In this document: in pieces, positions 28,150 through 36,316 of the stretch
How positions within the stretch are numbered: position 1 is the first letter of the stretch
Layout of the letters: each line of letters begins with the position of its first letter
Assembly: GCF_003008425.1 (NCBI RefSeq)
Contig: NZ_PXOQ01000007.1
Location: 1,078,419-1,142,418 of the forward strand
Direction: 5' to 3'
Source: Aurantibacter aestuarii
GTDB lineage: Bacteria; Bacteroidota; Bacteroidia; Flavobacteriales; Flavobacteriaceae
Length of the DNA stretch: 64,000 bases
The notes under the pieces: model-generated
The model's input: only the letters and a program-made list of their open reading frames with translations
Database searches by the model: none
Told to the model about the DNA's origin: nothing
Translations under genes and position numbers: made by a program

Positions 28150-28515
28150 CTAGTTACTTATCCATTTAGAATAACCACCATCTAAATCATAAATTTTAGT
28201 AAACCCTAAATCTTTCATTTTTTTAGCACACTTAGCACTTCGTCCACCTTTTTGACAAAACAAAATCACAGGTTTAGACTTATCTAATTCCAATACTTTT
28301 GTGTCAAAATCTTCATCAAAAAAATCTATATTTTGTGCGTCGTATATAGAACCCGCTATAAATTCTTCTTTAGTTCTAACATCTAACAGTTGTACATTAT
28401 CTCTTTTTAGAATTACTTCTACCTCATCTTGCGAGACCAAGTGAATTTCACCTTTAGATAGATTCGAACAAGAAATTAAAGTAATGCAAATAACAGAATA
28501 GATATAATATTTCAT
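28150..28515 (-). CDS. Rhodanese-like lipoprotein
   Basis: Sulfurtransferase-fold protein anchored by lipid. From the ATG at 28515 it has a lipoprotein signal (MKYYIYSVICITLISCS, Cys16); an in-frame start at 28554 would overlap the upstream gene and hide it. About 121 residues: LLDVRTKEEF, then the active loop FCQKGGRSAKCAKKM with the catalytic Cys, and the C-terminal YDLDGGYSKWIS. Adjacent to a second, cytosolic rhodanese with 1 nt between them, so one transcript. Confidence 0.85.
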   Translation of the reverse strand: MKYYIYSVICITLISCSNLSKGEIHLVSQDEVEVILKRDNVQLLDVRTKEEFIAGSIYDAQNIDFFDEDFDTKVLELDKSKPVILFCQKGGRSAKCAKKMKDLGFTKIYDLDGGYSKWISN

Positions 28516-28516
28516 T

Positions 28517-28825
28517 TTAAACTGTCGTTTTACCTTTCCATTCCATAAAACCACCTAATAGATTGTAAGTGTTTTTAAATCCAATCTGATTCATTACAGC
28601 ACATGCCTGAGCACTTCTGGCTCCGGAGCGACAATACACAAAATAGGTTTTTGTTTTATCTAAAGTCTCCACATCGTCTATAAAACCTTGTCCTTTATGT
28701 ATATCTATATTTTTGGCATTAGGAATAAACCCTTCATTTACTTCATCTTCAGTTCTTACATCTAAAATAACTGCATTTTCTGTGTTGTTTAACTTTTCAG
28801 CCCACTCGTTTTGACTTAAATCCAT
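28517..28825 (-). CDS. Cytosolic rhodanese-domain protein
   Basis: 102 residues, a single rhodanese domain with no signal: VILDVRTEDEVNEGFIPNA, the active-site loop YCRSGARSAQAC with the persulfide-forming Cys, and LLGGFMEWKGK at the end. First of a two-gene unit with the lipid-anchored copy. Probably a sulfur carrier or transferase; partner unknown. Confidence 0.88.
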   Translation of the reverse strand: MDLSQNEWAEKLNNTENAVILDVRTEDEVNEGFIPNAKNIDIHKGQGFIDDVETLDKTKTYFVYCRSGARSAQACAVMNQIGFKNTYNLLGGFMEWKGKTTV

Positions 28826-28923: not shown

Positions 28924-28954
28924 TTGAAAACCGAACCAATCGTCAGTATATTTG
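28924..28954 (+). promoter_or_regulatory. Promoter of the trp operon
   Basis: TTG at 28924-28926 and TATATTTG at 28947-28954 with 20 nt between: a near-ideal Bacteroidota promoter. Transcription should begin about 28958-28961, only a few nt before the leader-peptide ATG at 28964. Confidence 0.75.
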
Positions 28955-28963
28955 TCACTAACT

Positions 28964-29011
28964 ATGAAGAACATTTTTTTAAATAACTGGTGGTGGAACT
29001 TTCGAAACTAA
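28964..29011 (+). CDS. trpL: trp operon leader peptide with three consecutive Trp codons
   Basis: A 15-codon reading frame, MKNIFLNNWWWNFRN then TAA. Codons 9-11 are TGG TGG TGG. It lies between a consensus promoter and a hairpin terminator, 130 nt ahead of trpE: the arrangement of a classical translation-coupled attenuator. Stalling at the Trp codons when charged tRNA-Trp is scarce would favour an alternative RNA pairing. The start is only about 5 nt from the expected transcript start, so the message may be leaderless. Confidence 0.85.
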   Translation: MKNIFLNNWWWNFRN

Positions 29012-29015
29012 CGAT

Positions 29016-29076
29016 TCGTGAGTAAAACCATTGTATACTATATATAAGGCTTATCTTTCACGATAAGCCTTTTTTG
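29016..29076 (+). terminator. trp attenuator: terminator hairpin and candidate antiterminator
   Basis: The terminator is a perfect 10-bp stem AAGGCTTATC (29046-29055) / GATAAGCCTT (29062-29071), loop TTTCAC, with a T-run. The segment TCGTGA at 29016-29021, just after the leader stop, is complementary to TCACGA at 29058-29063, which spans the terminator loop and the start of its 3' arm. Pairing there would break the terminator, as expected of an antiterminator. Exact alternative structures need folding. Confidence 0.75.
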
Positions 29077-29141: not shown

Positions 29142-30536
29142 ATGAAAACATTTCAATTAAAAACACATTTTAAAAAAATACTTGCAGACACCATTACGCC
29201 AGTAAGTATCTATTTAAAAATACGCGATAAATTTCCTAATAGTATATTATTAGAAAGTAGCGATTATCATGCTAACGATAATAGTTTCTCTTATATATGC
29301 TTTAACCCGATAGCGACTATTAAAGTGGAAAACGAAGAGGTTACTCAAAATTTCCCAGATCATAGTACAACTACGGTAAGTGCAGACAATGTTACAGCGC
29401 AAATTCAGGAGTTTACCCAGCGTTTTAAAGCAGATGATAGTCAGGATTTTAAATTTATAAATAATGGTATTTTTGGCTATACCGCTTATGATGCTGTAAG
29501 ATATTTTGAAGATATCTCTATCTCAAAAAAAGCCAACTCTATTACAATTCCAGACATGCAATATGCGGTTTATCAAAACATTATTGCCATTAATCACTTT
29601 AAAAATGAAGCCTATATTTTTTCTCATACCTATCAAGGAGAAAGTAATGTAGAAGAGGTCTTTCAACTTATTAAATCTAAAAACTTTGCCACTTATAATT
29701 TTGAAACTAGTGCAGAGATTCAATCTAATTTAAGTGATGCCGAGTATAAATCTCATGTAGAACAAGCTAAAAAACATTGTGCACGTGGCGATGTATTTCA
29801 ATTGGTGTTGTCGAAAAAATTTAGTCAAGAATTTAAAGGTGACGAGTTTAACGTGTATCGCGCTTTAAGAAGTATTAATCCATCGCCGTATTTGTTTTAT
29901 TTCGATTATGGCAATTTTAAGATTTTTGGAAGTTCGCCTGAAGCGCAATTGGTCGTTAGTAAAGGTATTGCCGAAATTCATCCCATTGCAGGAACCTTTA
30001 AACGAACAGGAAACGATGAAAAAGATGCTGAGCTTGCTAAAAAATTAGCCTCAGACCAAAAAGAAAATGCAGAACACGTCATGTTGGTGGATTTAGCACG
30101 AAACGATTTAAGTCGTCATGGCAGCAATGTCAAGGTAGAAACCTATCGCGAAGCGCAATTTTTCTCTCATGTCATCCATTTGGTAAGTAAAGTAACAGGA
30201 AAAGTACATGCAAACACACCAACTATGCAGGTCGTGGCAGATACCTTTCCAGCGGGTACCTTAAGTGGAGCGCCAAAACATAAAGCTATGCAGCTTATAG
30301 AAAAGTATGAAAAAACAAATCGCGCATTTTATGGTGGAGCTATAGGGTTTATGGATTTTAAAGGTAATTACAATCATGCTATAATGATTAGAACATTTTT
30401 AAGTAAAGACCACCAGTTACATTGGCAGGCAGGAGCAGGTATTGTCTCAAAATCCAGTCCGGAAAGTGAGTTACAAGAAGTCTATAACAAATTAGGCGCA
30501 TTAACTAAAGCTATAGATTTAGCAAAAGATATTTAA
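29142..30536 (+). CDS. trpE: Anthranilate synthase component I
   Basis: Makes anthranilate from chorismate, first step of tryptophan synthesis. 464 residues. The feedback-inhibition element LLESS is present (about residue 37), and the chorismate-binding half has the family segments FQLVLSKKFS, SPSPYLFYFDYG-like NPSPYLFY, PIAGTFKRT, LVDLARNDLSR, TFPAGTLSGAPK and AGAGIVSKSSPESE. First structural gene of trpE-G-D-C-F-B-A, after the attenuator. Confidence 0.96.
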   Translation: MKTFQLKTHFKKILADTITPVSIYLKIRDKFPNSILLESSDYHANDNSFSYICFNPIATIKVENEEVTQNFPDHSTTTVSADNVTAQIQEFTQRFKADDSQDFKFINNGIFGYTAYDAVRYFEDISISKKANSITIPDMQYAVYQNIIAINHFKNEAYIFSHTYQGESNVEEVFQLIKSKNFATYNFETSAEIQSNLSDAEYKSHVEQAKKHCARGDVFQLVLSKKFSQEFKGDEFNVYRALRSINPSPYLFYFDYGNFKIFGSSPEAQLVVSKGIAEIHPIAGTFKRTGNDEKDAELAKKLASDQKENAEHVMLVDLARNDLSRHGSNVKVETYREAQFFSHVIHLVSKVTGKVHANTPTMQVVADTFPAGTLSGAPKHKAMQLIEKYEKTNRAFYGGAIGFMDFKGNYNHAIMIRTFLSKDHQLHWQAGAGIVSKSSPESELQEVYNKLGALTKAIDLAKDI

Positions 30537-30705: not shown

Positions 30706-30771
30706 AAAAGCATAATAATTTAGATAAAATAATAGTTTTCTTTCCTTAGGAAAGTGTTAGATATAGAAAAA

Positions 30772-31338
30772 ATGACAAAAGTATTAGTTATAGATAATTA
30801 CGATAGTTTTACCTACAATTTAGTCCATTATTTGGAAGATTTAGATTGTGAAGTAACCGTAATAAGAAACGATAAATTAACTTTAGACGAAGTGGACACT
30901 TACCAAAAAATCCTACTATCGCCAGGACCAGGTATTCCTGACGAAGCAGGACTTTTAAAAGCCATTATTAAACAATATGCCTCTACAAAAAGTATCTTAG
31001 GTATTTGTTTAGGGCAACAAGCTATTGGTGAAGTTTTTGGAGGGACACTCATAAACTTGGAAGAAGTATATCATGGTGTGGCCACATCAACCGAAGTGAT
31101 TGTTGAGGATGAAATCTTATTCAAAAACATGGATAAAACTATTGAAGTTGGACGTTACCATTCTTGGGTTGTGCATCCAGATTTACCAGAAGAATTAGAG
31201 GCTACTTCAATAGACAGTAATGGGCAAATCATGTCTTTACGTCATAAAATTTATGATGTACGTGGCGTTCAATACCATCCAGAAAGTGTTTTAACCCCAA
31301 ATGGAAAACAAATTTTAGAGAATTGGGTAAACAGTTAA
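30772..31338 (+). CDS. trpG: Anthranilate synthase component II (glutamine amidotransferase)
   Basis: Supplies ammonia from glutamine to TrpE. 188 residues from the ATG at 30772 (MTKVLVIDNYDSFTYNLVHYL); an in-frame GTG at 30754 would add six unconserved residues. The class I triad is visible: Cys in GICLGQQ, and His and Glu in YHPES. The oxyanion-site LLSPGPGIP is also present. Confidence 0.96.
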   Translation: MTKVLVIDNYDSFTYNLVHYLEDLDCEVTVIRNDKLTLDEVDTYQKILLSPGPGIPDEAGLLKAIIKQYASTKSILGICLGQQAIGEVFGGTLINLEEVYHGVATSTEVIVEDEILFKNMDKTIEVGRYHSWVVHPDLPEELEATSIDSNGQIMSLRHKIYDVRGVQYHPESVLTPNGKQILENWVNS

Positions 31339-31486
31339 TGTAAAAATTTGAAAATGTGCTATTGCAAGAATGTCTTTCTAAAAATTAATAATAAACCAAT
31401 TTAAAGTAATTGTTATTATGAAATAAGTAAGAGTTCAAATTAATTAAAAAGCCAAAGACATACTGCCAAAAGCTAACAGCAAAATA

Positions 31487-32479
31487 ATGAAACAGATATT
31501 AAATAGACTTATAAATCAAGAAAGTATTTCGGCAGAAGAAGCCAGAAATGTCTTAGTTAATATTTCAGAAGGACAATATAATCAAAGTCAGATAGCCTCA
31601 TTTTTAACCGTTTACATGATGCGTAACATTACCTTGGAGGAACTTCAGGGTTTTAGAGATGCGCTTTTAGACCTGTGTATCCCTGTAGATATTTCAGAGT
31701 TTAACGCAATCGATTTATGTGGTACAGGAGGCGATGGAAAAGATACCTTTAATATATCAACCTTAGCCTCGTTTATTACGGCAGGTGCAGGTGTAAAAGT
31801 TGCAAAACATGGTAATTATGGAGTGTCGTCAGCATCAGGGTCATCAAACGTTATGGAAGCTTTAGGTGTAAAATTCACTAATAATATAGATGTTTTAAAG
31901 AACACTATAGATAAAGCTGGTATTTGTGTCATGCATGCACCACTTTTTCACCCAGCTATGAAAAATGTGGCGCCAATCCGAAGAGAACTTGGTGTAAAAA
32001 CATTTTTTAATATGTTGGGACCTATGGTAAATCCTGCATTTCCAAAAAATCAAATGGTTGGTGTTTTTAATTTAGAATTACAACGTTTGTATGGGTATTT
32101 GTACCAGAATACAGATAAAAATTACAGTATTGTTCACGCTTTAGATGGTTATGATGAAATCTCATTAACCGGAAAAACTAAAATTATTACCAATAGTTCT
32201 GAAGTTATGTTAGAACCTTCAGACTTAGGTTTAAAACAAATACAACAATCCGACATATTTGGAGGAGATTCTGTAGAATCTTCAGCAAACATATTTAAAA
32301 ACATTATTTCAGGGCAAGGTACAGAAGCGCAGAATAATGTGGTGTGTGCTAATGCTGGTTTAGCTATTGCAACTGTAAACAACATTTCACATAAAGATGG
32401 TTTTGAATTAGCTAAACAAAGTTTAGAAAGTGGAAGAGCAAAACAGAGTTTAGAAAAATTAATAGAATTAAGTAAATAA
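31487..32479 (+). CDS. trpD: Anthranilate phosphoribosyltransferase
   Basis: Joins anthranilate and PRPP. 330 residues: an N-terminal helical domain, the PRPP site DLCGTGGDGKDTFNISTL, KHGNYGVSSASGSSNVMEALG, and HPAMKNVAPIRRELGVKTFFNMLGP-type segments. The trpG-trpD gap of 148 nt holds another short-repeat spacer (CCAAAGACATACTGCCAAAAGC near 31450). Confidence 0.96.
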   Translation: MKQILNRLINQESISAEEARNVLVNISEGQYNQSQIASFLTVYMMRNITLEELQGFRDALLDLCIPVDISEFNAIDLCGTGGDGKDTFNISTLASFITAGAGVKVAKHGNYGVSSASGSSNVMEALGVKFTNNIDVLKNTIDKAGICVMHAPLFHPAMKNVAPIRRELGVKTFFNMLGPMVNPAFPKNQMVGVFNLELQRLYGYLYQNTDKNYSIVHALDGYDEISLTGKTKIITNSSEVMLEPSDLGLKQIQQSDIFGGDSVESSANIFKNIISGQGTEAQNNVVCANAGLAIATVNNISHKDGFELAKQSLESGRAKQSLEKLIELSK

Positions 32480-32556
32480 GTAGTCGGCAGTAAACAGTAC
32501 ACAGTTAGCGGTCAAATTGCAACTGAGTGCTGAAGACTGAAGACTGAAGACTGAAT
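32480..32556. repeat. Heptamer tandem/inverted repeat in trpD-trpC spacer
   Basis: The left half repeats CAGT every 7 nt (GGCAGTAAACAGTACACAGT). The right half repeats the complement as (GAAGACT)3 within CTGAAGACTGAAGACTGAAG. The two halves are therefore complementary and can form a long imperfect hairpin. A worn relative lies after trpC (about 33350-33376, GTTGGCAGTATTCAGT). Confidence 0.65.
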
Positions 32557-32557
32557 C

Positions 32558-33343
32558 ATGGATATATTAACAAAAATAGTAAACGATAAACGCATAGAAG
32601 TTAATTTGCGCAAGGCGTTAATTCCAACCAAACAATTGGAGCAATCCATTTTATTTGAGCGTGAAACTGTATCGTTAGCCCAAAACTTAAGAGAAAGTGA
32701 TACTGGAATTATTGCAGAGCATAAACGTAGGTCGCCATCAAAGCAAGTTATTAATCATAATTTAAATGTTTTTGATGTGGCTAAAGGTTATGAAAAAGCA
32801 GGAGTAAGTGGAATGTCTGTTTTGACCGATGGAAAATACTTTGGCGGAAGTTTAGACGATTTACTTACCGCAAGAGCCAGTTGTAACTTACCTTTGTTGC
32901 GTAAGGAGTTTATAATAGACACCTATCAGATTCTAGAGGCGAAAGCTTATGGTGCTGACGTTATTTTATTAATTGCAGCAATTTTAACAAAAGAAGAAAT
33001 TAAAACATTTTCAGAATTTGCAAAAAGTTTAAAATTAGATGTTCTTTTAGAAGTTCATAATTTAGAAGAATTGCAAAAATCGATTATGCCAAGTTTGGAT
33101 ATGTTAGGTGTAAATAATAGAAATTTAAAAACTTTTGAAGTGAGCTTAGATACCAGCAAACAAATAAGTGAGCATATACCAAGCGACTTTGTAAAGGTGT
33201 CTGAAAGTGGTATTAGCAGTATTGAAGCAATTAAGACTTTACAACCATTTGGGTATAAAGGATTTTTAATTGGAGAAAATTTTATGAAAACCGATAATGC
33301 AGGACAAAGTGCTTCAGATTTTATTTCTGAATTAAGTAAATAG
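32558..33343 (+). CDS. trpC: Indole-3-glycerol-phosphate synthase
   Basis: Fourth enzyme of the pathway, a (beta/alpha)8 barrel. 261 residues: IIAEHKRRSPSK near the N-terminus, SVLTDGKYFGGS, PLLRKEFIIDTYQI, LLEVHNLEEL, LGVNNRNLKTFEV and VSESGI are the standard active-site stretches. A separate polypeptide, not fused to TrpF. Confidence 0.96.
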   Translation: MDILTKIVNDKRIEVNLRKALIPTKQLEQSILFERETVSLAQNLRESDTGIIAEHKRRSPSKQVINHNLNVFDVAKGYEKAGVSGMSVLTDGKYFGGSLDDLLTARASCNLPLLRKEFIIDTYQILEAKAYGADVILLIAAILTKEEIKTFSEFAKSLKLDVLLEVHNLEELQKSIMPSLDMLGVNNRNLKTFEVSLDTSKQISEHIPSDFVKVSESGISSIEAIKTLQPFGYKGFLIGENFMKTDNAGQSASDFISELSK

Positions 33344-33439
33344 TCCTTTGTAGGTAGTTGGCAGTATTCAGTAAAAATTACCAGGTTAAAATCATTTAAA
33401 ACCTATAACAAAACGAAAAGACCTTAAATAATAAAAACT

Positions 33440-34084
33440 ATGAAACTAAAAGTATGCGGAATGAAACAAGAGAACAACATCTTAGATGTTGCAGATCTTC
33501 AACCAAATTATATGGGCTTCATTTTTTATGAAAAGTCACCAAGAAATTTTAACGATGAAATTCCAGAGTTGCCAGATGGCATTCAAAAAATAGGTGTATT
33601 TGTAAATGCCACTTTAAACTTTGTGGTTTCAAAAATTGAACAACATCAATTACAAGGCGTTCAGTTACATGGCGACGAATCTCCAGAATTCTGCGAGCAG
33701 TTAAAAGCATACGATGTTTTAGTGATTAAGGTGTTTTCAATGAAAAATCAATTCGATTTTAAAGTGGTAGAACCATATCAGGAATTTTGTGATTATTTCT
33801 TATTTGACACTAAAGGAAAAGAACCAGGTGGAAATGGCTATACCTTTAATTGGAATTTATTAAAGAAATACAATTTAAAAACACCATACTTTTTAAGCGG
33901 AGGTTTAGGTATGGAAAACATGGACGATTTATTATTATTTCTAAAACGCCCAGAATCTAGATTGTGTTGTACTTTAGATATAAACAGTAAATTCGAATCT
34001 GTCCCTGGATTTAAAGACATTACAAAAGTGAAGGCATTTAAAAACATGTTAATTAAAAACGGTTATCAAAACCATGACTTATAA
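33440..34084 (+). CDS. trpF: Phosphoribosylanthranilate isomerase
   Basis: Amadori isomerase, third step of the pathway. 214 residues. It has the catalytic Cys in KVCGMKQ (about residue 5), [20 protein letters not shown], and the catalytic Asp in [14 protein letters not shown], with SGGLG in the phosphate site. It overlaps trpB by 11 nt, implying coupled translation. Confidence 0.95.
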
Positions 34085-35255
34085 TATAAACGATAAAGGC
34101 TATTATGGCGAGTTTGGCGGGGCTTATATTCCAGAAATGCTCTATCCAAATGTAGAAGAACTTCGTCAGAATTACTTAAAGATTATGGCAGAGCCTTCTT
34201 TTAAAGAAGAATTTGATCAATTATTAAAAGATTATGTCGGTCGCCCGTCACCTTTATATTTCGCCAAACGCTTAAGCGAAAAATACAACACGAAAATCTA
34301 CTTAAAACGGGAAGATTTAAATCATACCGGAGCACATAAGGTCAATAATACCATCGGTCAAATACTAATGGCACAGCGCTTAGGTAAAACCCGAATTATA
34401 GCTGAAACTGGTGCAGGACAACATGGTGTTGCCACAGCAACTGTTTGTGCGCTTATGGGTATGGAGTGTATTGTGTATATGGGAGAAATTGATATTGCCA
34501 GACAAGCTCCTAATGTGGCGCGTATGAAAATGCTTGGCGCTAAAGTAGTGCCTGCAACCTCAGGTAGTAAAACGTTAAAAGATGCTACTAATGAGGCTAT
34601 TAGAGATTGGATTAATAACCCGGTAGATACACATTATATTATTGGTAGCGTTGTAGGACCGCATCCATATCCAGATATGGTAGCGCGTTTTCAGGCGGTA
34701 GTTTCCGAAGAAATTAAATGGCAATTAAAAGAAAAAGAAGGTACAGAAAAGCCGGATTATGTTATTGCTTGTGTGGGTGGCGGTAGTAATGCAGCAGGTG
34801 CCTATTATCATTATTTGGAAGATACCGATGTAAAACTTATTGCAGTAGAAGCTGCAGGTAAAGGAGTTCATTCTGGAGAAAGTGCTGCTACATCTGTTTT
34901 AGGTAAAGAAGGTATTATTCACGGAAGTAAAACCTTATTAATGCAAACCAAAGACGGACAAATTACAGAACCATATTCTATTTCGGCAGGGTTGGATTAT
35001 CCTGGAGTTGGTCCTATGCATGCTCATTTATACAAAACTGGTCGTGCAGAATTTGTGGCAATAACAGATGATGAAGCGATGAGTTCTGGGTTGGAATTAA
35101 GTGCATTAGAAGGCATTATTCCAGCTATAGAAACCTCACATTCTTTAGCCGTTTTTGAACAAAAGACATTTAAACCAGACGATATTGTTATTGTTAATTT
35201 ATCTGGTCGTGGCGATAAAGATTTACAGAATTATATTGATTATTTCAAATTATAG
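34074..35255 (+). CDS. trpB: Tryptophan synthase beta chain
   Basis: PLP enzyme joining indole and serine. 393 residues: [12 protein letters not shown], the PLP-lysine motif [12 protein letters not shown] (Lys about 88), [13 protein letters not shown], the phosphate-binding [10 protein letters not shown], the substrate-channel segment [14 protein letters not shown] and [10 protein letters not shown] at the end. Its start lies inside the end of trpF. Confidence 0.98.
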
Positions 35256-35256
35256 C

Positions 35257-35449
35257 GTCATGCTGAACTTGTTTCAGCATCTCAACAAATTATGAAATCA
35301 AATGAAACATATCGTTTTATCAAGCCATTTCATGAGAAAAGCTTTTAAAATTTGGCTTAAAGATTGGACATTAAATTTAGTAAAAGAGAAGACTGCAAAT
35401 TTAGAAACTAAAATACTTAATAAGAACCTGAAACAAGTTCAGGTTGACG
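35257..35449. repeat. Inverted pair of REP-like palindromes in trpB-trpA spacer
   Basis: Copy 1 at 35257-35282 contains GCTGAACTTGTTTCAGC and copy 2 at 35426-35449, in reverse orientation, contains CCTGAAACAAGTTCAGG. Each is a small palindrome; the stem-closing G-C pairs differ between copies in a compensated way. This is a bounded REP pair, and the 140 nt between holds an open frame of 51 codons (35302-35457) that runs into copy 2 and is probably not a gene. Confidence 0.65.
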
Positions 35450-35548
35450 AAAATTGAAAAAACGTTAATCTCAACTTGTTTATTCAGTATTAAATAAAAC
35501 TAAAATAGATTCCTAATCTTGTTTTTTAAGACAGGAACAACAAATAAA

Positions 35549-36316
35549 ATGAACAGAATTAACCAAAAATTACAAGAAAACAAAAAACTATTATCCATAT
35601 ATTTTTCTGCAGGTTATCCAAACTTGGATGATACAGTTTCCATTATAGAAAACCTAGAAAAAAATGGTGTAGATATGATAGAAATTGGCTTGCCATTTAG
35701 CGATCCTTTGGCAGACGGACCAACCATTCAAGAAAGTTCTACAGCAGCATTAAAAAATGGTATGACAACCGAAGTTTTGTTTGATCAATTAAAAGATATT
35801 AGAAAAACGGTTACAATTCCATTAATCATTATGGGCTATTTTAACCCAATGTTACAATATGGCGTTGAAGCTTTTTGTAAAAAATGTCAGGAGATTGGTG
35901 TAGACGGATTAATTATTCCGGATTTACCGGTAGATGTGTATAATGAACAATACAAAGCTACTTTTGAAAAATATGGATTAATTAACGTGTTTTTAATTAC
36001 GCCACAAACCAGCAATGAGCGTATTCATTTTATAGATTCCATTTCAAATGGCTTTATTTATATGGTAAGTAGTGCAAGTGTAACAGGTAGTGGTTCTGGT
36101 TTTGGTAACGAGCAAACCGATTATTTTAAGCGTATAGCAGAATTAAATTTAAATAACCCGCAAATTGTAGGTTTTGGTATTAAGGATCACGATACATTTA
36201 CTCAGGCCACTAAACATGCTAAAGGCGCAATTATAGGTTCCGCTTTTATTAAACACTTAACACAGCATGGAGCAATTAAAATAGATGCATTTACAAAATC
36301 TATTCTAAAGGCTTAA
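35549..36316 (+). CDS. trpA: Tryptophan synthase alpha chain
   Basis: Cleaves indole-glycerol phosphate and passes indole to TrpB. 255 residues from the ATG at 35549 (MNRINQKLQ); the frame opens upstream at a TTG (35519) without conserved sequence. Catalytic Glu in MIEIGLPFSDPLADGP, catalytic Asp in GLIIPDLP, plus GFGIKDH and GSAFIK in the phosphate site. Last gene of the trp operon, 293 nt after trpB. Confidence 0.96.
   Translation: MNRINQKLQENKKLLSIYFSAGYPNLDDTVSIIENLEKNGVDMIEIGLPFSDPLADGPTIQESSTAALKNGMTTEVLFDQLKDIRKTVTIPLIIMGYFNPMLQYGVEAFCKKCQEIGVDGLIIPDLPVDVYNEQYKATFEKYGLINVFLITPQTSNERIHFIDSISNGFIYMVSSASVTGSGSGFGNEQTDYFKRIAELNLNNPQIVGFGIKDHDTFTQATKHAKGAIIGSAFIKHLTQHGAIKIDAFTKSILKA

Follow-up and report, generated by a model that had tools for sequence, protein, structure and literature searches.

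A divergent Bacteroid-trp leader RNA ahead of the trp operon of Aurantibacter aestuarii, with a region 2 that matches the top of its terminator

The window analysed here, a stretch of 64,000 nucleotides from the genome of Aurantibacter aestuarii, contains the operon trpEGDCFBA preceded by a compact region (28924-29075) in which inspection of the sequence reveals a promoter, a leader reading frame, a terminator and, past the leader stop, a complementary segment. The locus raises the question of whether these parts make up a ribosome-mediated attenuator and how such a device could operate with a start codon that lies only about 5 nt from the expected 5' end of the message. A preliminary description had listed a promoter, a 15-codon peptide, a 10-bp terminator and a complementary segment just after the stop, all of which we located. 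Ribosome-mediated trp attenuation, also proposed there, fits every part found, and the element is a genuine trp attenuator of an already known kind.

An attenuator of the Bacteroid-trp type

All parts of the element and the trp genes lie on the plus strand. The promoter, of the Bacteroidota type (28924-28954), consists of a TTG (28924-28926), which we take to be the -33 element, and, after 20 nt, the -7 element TATATTTG (28947-28954). The leader peptide MKNIFLNNWWWNFRN is encoded by 15 codons and a TAA stop (28964..29011, with ATG at 28964-28966 and TAA at 29009-29011), and homologous leaders support its assignment. It contains three adjacent Trp codons, TGGTGGTGG (28988-28996), a putative sensing site marked by its conservation. 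The intrinsic terminator that follows (29046-29075) has a 10-bp stem formed by AAGGCTTATC (29046-29055) and GATAAGCCTT (29062-29071), a 6-nt loop, TTTCAC (29056-29061), and a T-run that ends at 29075. It emerges from folding and from the consensus fold, and a terminator search recovers the same 10-pair stem (one found, against a mean of 0.1 in shuffles); for the 120-nt leader the folding energy is -26.9 kcal/mol (z -3.34), with one of 200 shuffles as good.

The first gene under the presumed control of this element is trpE (29142-30536), whose best NCBIfam match is TIGR00564, anthranilate synthase component I, at 435 bits (cut-off 517.7). Then follow trpG, trpD, trpC, trpF, trpB and trpA in this order (30754-36316), assigned by NCBIfam matches; trpG, D, C, B and A each reach an NCBIfam cut-off, and the best match of TrpF, 149.6 bits, falls short of its cut-off (215). 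On the minus strand (28150-28825), a pair of adjacent rhodanese-like reading frames, recognised by eye from their translations, is divergent from the operon.

Comparison with homologous loci shows that the arrangement is conserved beyond chance. Eighty relatives, all titled as flavobacterial genera or Bacteroidetes, were fetched by their TrpE, and two with contigs starting 26 and 168 nt upstream of trpE (L056 and L058) were set aside. In each of the 78 homologous loci that have enough upstream DNA, a leader with two or more Trp codons in succession precedes an intrinsic terminator that lies before the first structural gene, as in the window. A lack of conserved Trp codons or hairpin in close relatives had been named beforehand as evidence against attenuation, and the opposite is found, both being kept in 78 of 78. 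When the window and these relatives are aligned (79 sequences, alignment A1), TGGTGGTG, the core GTGA of the segment termed region 2 below, and the loop letters TCAC are invariant. WWC replaces WWW in two of the 78 relatives (L021, L072), and one terminator pair, A-U in the window, reads G-C in its 78 relatives.

The preliminary description had named a Bacteroidota leader motif, Bacteroid-trp, and this is indeed the family concerned. With cmscan, the window matches RF01692, Bacteroid-trp, over the full model length with 38 bits (E 0.0044 for 311 bases), below the cut-off of 49 bits; an Rfam scan of the whole window at cut-off returns a tRNA only, no T-box reaching its threshold. Of 20 homologous trpE loci tested, 17 exceed the RF01692 cut-off (the misses are L021, L030 and L064), and the same-genus locus L172 has no match above it. 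Because the window stays under the cut-off while most of its homologues pass, we file the element, as judged from sequence, under the Bacteroid-trp leader RNAs as a divergent homologue and not as a listed member. An unrelated or new motif had also been considered and was dropped in view of these scores.

The Rfam model and the window agree in their occurrence before trp genes of Bacteroidota and in the alignment of AUG, UGG run, hairpin and terminator 5' arm. The model ends at that arm, however, so that the window adds the terminator loop, the 3' arm and the predicted helix between region 2 and the terminator top. In its main text, the founding paper names Bacteroid-trp once, in Table 1 (Weinberg et al. 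2010, PMC2864571). For another species, Flavobacterium psychrophilum, the relevant passages report that Bacteroid-Trp is conserved, likewise upstream of the trp operon, and liken it to the E. coli leader (PMC6414381), and strong clues of leader-peptide attenuation ahead of amino acid operons are described (PMC9723704); the passages on the trp leader in these two papers contain neither an antiterminator nor a distance from transcription start to AUG. Since Bacteroid-trp had already been placed before the trp operon of that species (PMC6414381), we regard the system in the window as ordinary.

Distribution within the class and the phylum

We built a survey model from alignment A1 (79 sequences) and applied it to 396 genomes of the class, of which it matched 77, at 80 places including the window. 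At 59 of the 79 non-window places a leader with two or more successive Trp codons is present, and trpE, trpB or trpD lies downstream in 57 of these, the DNA ending too soon in the other two (L110, L120). One further place (L119) has trpE and no leader recognised by our script, and 19 of the 79 have neither a recognised leader nor a trp gene, one of them (L126) with only 71 nt of downstream DNA. Among the 40 nearest relatives 29 match, and within the same family the figure is 25 of 25 with the window's own genome counted; at least one of these 25 (G419, L205) lacks both a trp gene and Trp codons and consists of a terminator. The window's own genome contains a further weak match (C3, E 5.8e-4), again a terminator, located behind another reading frame.

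In a survey of the phylum, 63 of 392 genomes matched. Among the genomes listed, three of the same family were without a match, and a same-family match in another (G728, L201) has neither a trp gene nor TGGTGG. The matches outside the class, in two genomes (L198, L199), consist of a hairpin and a T-run, with neither TGGTGG nor a trp gene in the stretch examined; as the model is tuned to Flavobacteriaceae, these numbers cannot be read as absence of the element outside the class.

The gene that follows the attenuator varies. It is trpB, with trpE about 1.2 kb further on, in L096, L104, L114, L123, L129 and L130, and trpD and trpF in L105, L107-L109, L112, L116, L118, L127, L132, L137 and L144. 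From this varied position we conclude that the attenuator stayed with the trp operon through rearrangements. In one genome (L203, G420), two tandem matches (92-216 and 225-359), each with TGGTGG and a T-run hairpin, precede trpE and perhaps represent a duplicated attenuator.

A different case is found in two genomes of a family (f2) of the same order, where the model match (L202:200-362 and L208) precedes an aspartokinase gene. The gene downstream of L202 has AA_kinase and ACT domains, and the gene start at L208 was set by eye. The leaders, translated by eye as MILSNLKKGKKQYLRPMS and MILSNLKKAKKQNLRRTS, are rich in lysine and without Trp codons, and the two elements share the TATATTTG box and a GUCGUGA:UCACGAC module. 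This element may be a lysine attenuator. L202 has no RF01692 match, and the window's genome, searched ahead of its three aspartokinase-like genes, revealed no relative of the lysine type.

Predicted pairing of region 2 with the terminator top

Four nucleotides past the leader stop lies TCGTGAG (29016-29022), which we term region 2 and which is the predicted 5' strand (UCGUGAG) of an antiterminator. It complements TTCACGA (29057-29063), including one G.U pair; this target, region 3, covers most of the terminator loop together with the initial 2 nt of its 3' arm and stands out by its invariance and covariation. The complementary segment of the preliminary description is thus present, but its partner is the loop with the top of the 3' arm, and not the 5' arm.

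When the full leader is folded free of ribosomes, the minimum free energy (MFE) structure contains a 1:2 hairpin, the pause or anti-antiterminator hairpin (28989-29032; 28989-29006 pair with 29015-29032), at a position that resembles the consensus hairpin of Rfam. The Trp codons are then paired with 29027-29032 and region 2 is hidden. With a ribosome placed on the Trp codons and masking the 5' part, a transcript ending at 29062-29066 is predicted to fold UCGUGAG:UUCACGA around an inner antiterminator hairpin (29028-29049), in which CC (29028-29029) pairs with GG (29048-29049) and UUGUAUA (29031-29037) with UAUAUAA (29041-29047). The predicted antiterminator engages bases from 6 of the 10 pairs of the terminator stem. 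After completion of the 3' arm, the terminator is the MFE structure in each case tried, even with a stalled ribosome, and antitermination must therefore be kinetic or use contacts beyond nested folding.

We favour the following process. Transcription would begin some 5 nt ahead of the leader AUG, at which a ribosome would initiate without the help of a Shine-Dalgarno site. With ample Trp-tRNA, this ribosome would reach the stop (29009) and cover region 2, as follows from an assumed footprint of 12 nt, so that the terminator could form. When Trp-tRNA is scarce, it would stall on UGG UGG UGG, the 1:2 hairpin would be opened and region 2 set free to catch the loop and the upper 3' arm of the terminator during their emergence; the inner hairpin would hold the foot of the 5' arm, and the polymerase would continue into trpE. 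That the element is a ribosome-mediated transcription attenuator of trpEGDCFBA, homologous to Bacteroid-trp and working in this manner, is a reading in which we have high confidence.

Taken alone, the region 2 helix of the window is weak (shuffle p 0.08, and 39% of swapped partners are as good), and the case for this pairing is made by its conservation and covariation in relatives. From the 79 close sequences of A1, RNAalifold yields a consensus fold with the terminator only, as region 2 and the loop are nearly invariant among them, and no covariation was seen for the 1:2 hairpin. This near-invariance was the reason for adding distant elements, on which the covariation rests.

The extended set comprised 178 elements (the window, its 78 relatives, 59 survey elements and a further 40, each of which has a trp gene downstream). 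Two places with TGGTGG, no recognised leader and no trp gene (L149, L158) were dropped from the helix and distance counts, and places without TGGTGG were excluded, namely other non-leader survey places and such cases among L198-L202, L205 and L208. We sought the best helix between the terminator top, taken as the loop with 6 nt on either side, and the stretch that follows the Trp run, at most 40 nt long. This resulted in 55 distinct helices with a mean score of 16.3, compared to a mean of 12.24 (sd 0.37, maximum 13.8) for permuted terminators, and none of 10,000 permutations reached 16.3; an earlier set of 58 had given 16.35 against 12.64. The permutation ignores relatedness and is not a phylogenetic test, and swaps between near relatives can score like true partners, an effect that makes the contrast smaller. 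In 39 of the 55 helices the centre is located 19-23 nt past the Trp run, as compared to 12% for shuffled regions (the shuffles for helix and distance kept single-base and not dinucleotide content).

The helices themselves are diverse. Besides UCGUGAA:UUCACGA there are UCGCGA:UCGCGA (L206) and GUCGUAA:UUACGAU (L172), and in L101, with AACGUGA:UCACGUU, the terminator arms change along with the helix. Weak helices occur in L106, L110, L113, L145 and the window. In L172, of the same genus, an A-U pair takes the place of G29020-C29059 of the window, where the C lies in the unpaired terminator loop; the L172 loop, TTTAC instead of TTTCAC, is one nucleotide shorter, so that the loop may have lost a base instead of exchanging one, and the pairing is kept either way. 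Loop and 3' arm together are targeted by 27 of the 55 helices, 5' arm and loop by 17, both arms by 4, the 5' arm only by 4, the loop only by 2 and the 3' arm only by 1. The GGCAAC:GUUGCC helix of L105 and L144 targets the 5' arm, and the best helix in the group of elements before trpD often uses that arm. The check for covariation suggested in the preliminary description thus came out in favour of the pairing at the level of the class: as far as these comparisons of sequence reach, region 2 covaries with the terminator top across Bacteroidia. In the literature searched, mostly open-access texts without supplements, we found no description of an antiterminator of this kind.

Of the other possible explanations, the most serious is a classical antiterminator, in which antitermination is due to the inner hairpin and to pairing with the 5' arm, the match of region 2 to the loop being incidental. 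The weakness of the window helix and the CC:GG pairs that hold the foot of its 5' arm would agree with this, as would the minority of helices directed at the 5' arm, alone or with the loop. We nevertheless consider it improbable, as the loop with the 3' arm is the most frequent target, the invariant TCAC of the loop consists of letters that a terminator does not need, and L172 differs from the window in both loop and region 2 and yet keeps the pairing. It is extremely unlikely that we are dealing with a plain constitutive terminator behind a chance short reading frame, with no response to tryptophan. Model matches that are not attenuators do exist, as the survey places with neither leader nor trp gene illustrate, but they are unlike the trpE relatives, every one of which has a leader with consecutive Trp codons, and a mere terminator is at odds with a region 2 that covaries and keeps a constant spacing.

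Attenuation might also be combined with a role in trans of the terminated leader RNA or its peptide, as for rnTrpL and peTrpL of Sinorhizobium meliloti. Like rnTrpL, the RNA released at the terminator would be a small mRNA that is nearly leaderless, and the three codons ahead of the Trp run, which mostly encode N, H or N, and T (N in 74, H or N in 70 and T in 70 of 79 sequences), change in part synonymously. Their conservation fits constraints on the RNA or on initiation equally well, however, and the window itself has Asn, not Thr, directly before the Trp run, so that we hold such an additional role to be quite unlikely. Attenuation in cis by the process set out above remains our preferred reading.

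The predicted, nearly leaderless start and its meaning

In F. psychrophilum, the promoter box TAnnTTTG is found at -12 to -5 (PMC9723704), and on this basis transcription in the window is predicted to start at about 28959, leaving a 5' UTR of about 5 nt. The distance given in the preliminary description is thus borne out as a prediction from the position of the -7 box. The same description saw a difficulty in stalling on an almost leaderless message; this is no obstacle, as predicted UTRs of 0-6 nt also occur in other Bacteroidia and rnTrpL of S. meliloti starts at its ATG.

Among the close relatives, the box lies 7-22 nt ahead of the leader start in 76 of 78, with a predicted UTR of at most 6 nt in 10 of these 76. 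In the class survey, 42 of the 59 elements with a leader have the box, and the predicted UTR is 0-6 nt in 19 of them. For all leader elements counted (157, with L181-L197 and L203-L207 left out), the box is present within 40 nt in 137, and the predicted UTR is at most 6 nt in 39 of these, four having 0; all such figures derive from starts predicted from the box, not mapped, in related species that are not independent. The 20 elements without TAnnTTTG were not scored, and several of them have CATATTTG or AATATTTG at a similar place, as judged by eye. The distance from the -7 box to the leader start falls into two groups, 4-10 and 13-23 nt, with 11-12 nt in 2 of 137 and a single case at 30. This may reflect clade structure or a real avoidance, and we make no claim on it because clades cluster inside the peaks. 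Leaderless mRNAs make up 5.5% in F. psychrophilum (PMC9723704), and about 3.7% of 5' UTRs in Bacteroides thetaiotaomicron are shorter than 10 nt (PMC7366714), figures taken from the passages concerned and based on definitions that differ from our counts. The box positions indicate that a very short predicted start recurs among related bacteria.

The trp attenuator of E. coli has a Trp-rich leader and mutually exclusive 1:2, 2:3 and 3:4 pairings, with region 2 pairing to the 5' arm of the terminator. The window has a leader of this type and may share the scheme, but its region 2 would for the most part pair with the loop and the upper 3' arm, and no match to TrpR was found in the window's genome. 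A closer parallel for the start is trpL of S. meliloti (rnTrpL), a leaderless trp attenuator that begins at its ATG (PMC7298713). According to the passages available, it also has a Trp leader before trpE, and attenuation is reported there and predicted here; it differs in that its 5' end is the ATG itself instead of about 5 nt ahead of it, in belonging to a different phylum, and in reported functions in trans that are only hypothesised for the window element. Further trp attenuators are described for Corynebacterium (PMC1262725) and Streptomyces (PMC4833913), in passages that do not give start distances.

An element of this type was to be expected at the locus, and its value lies in completing the Rfam picture with terminator, antiterminator and distances; what is added to the Rfam model is an antiterminator supported by covariation and the recurrence of very short predicted starts. 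The pairing of region 2 with the loop supplies the exact bases for compensatory mutation. We can imagine, with a confidence just short of even, that the trp attenuators of Bacteroidia form a subtype of their own, in large part with an (almost) leaderless start devoid of a Shine-Dalgarno site, and with an antiterminator about 21 nt past the Trp run that captures the loop and the upper stem rather than simply sequestering the 5' arm. The locus offers a test case for a regulatory peptide whose start would lie a few nucleotides from the 5' end, in bacteria that seldom use Shine-Dalgarno sites and where initiation must come soon enough to control an RNA polymerase about 110 nt downstream.
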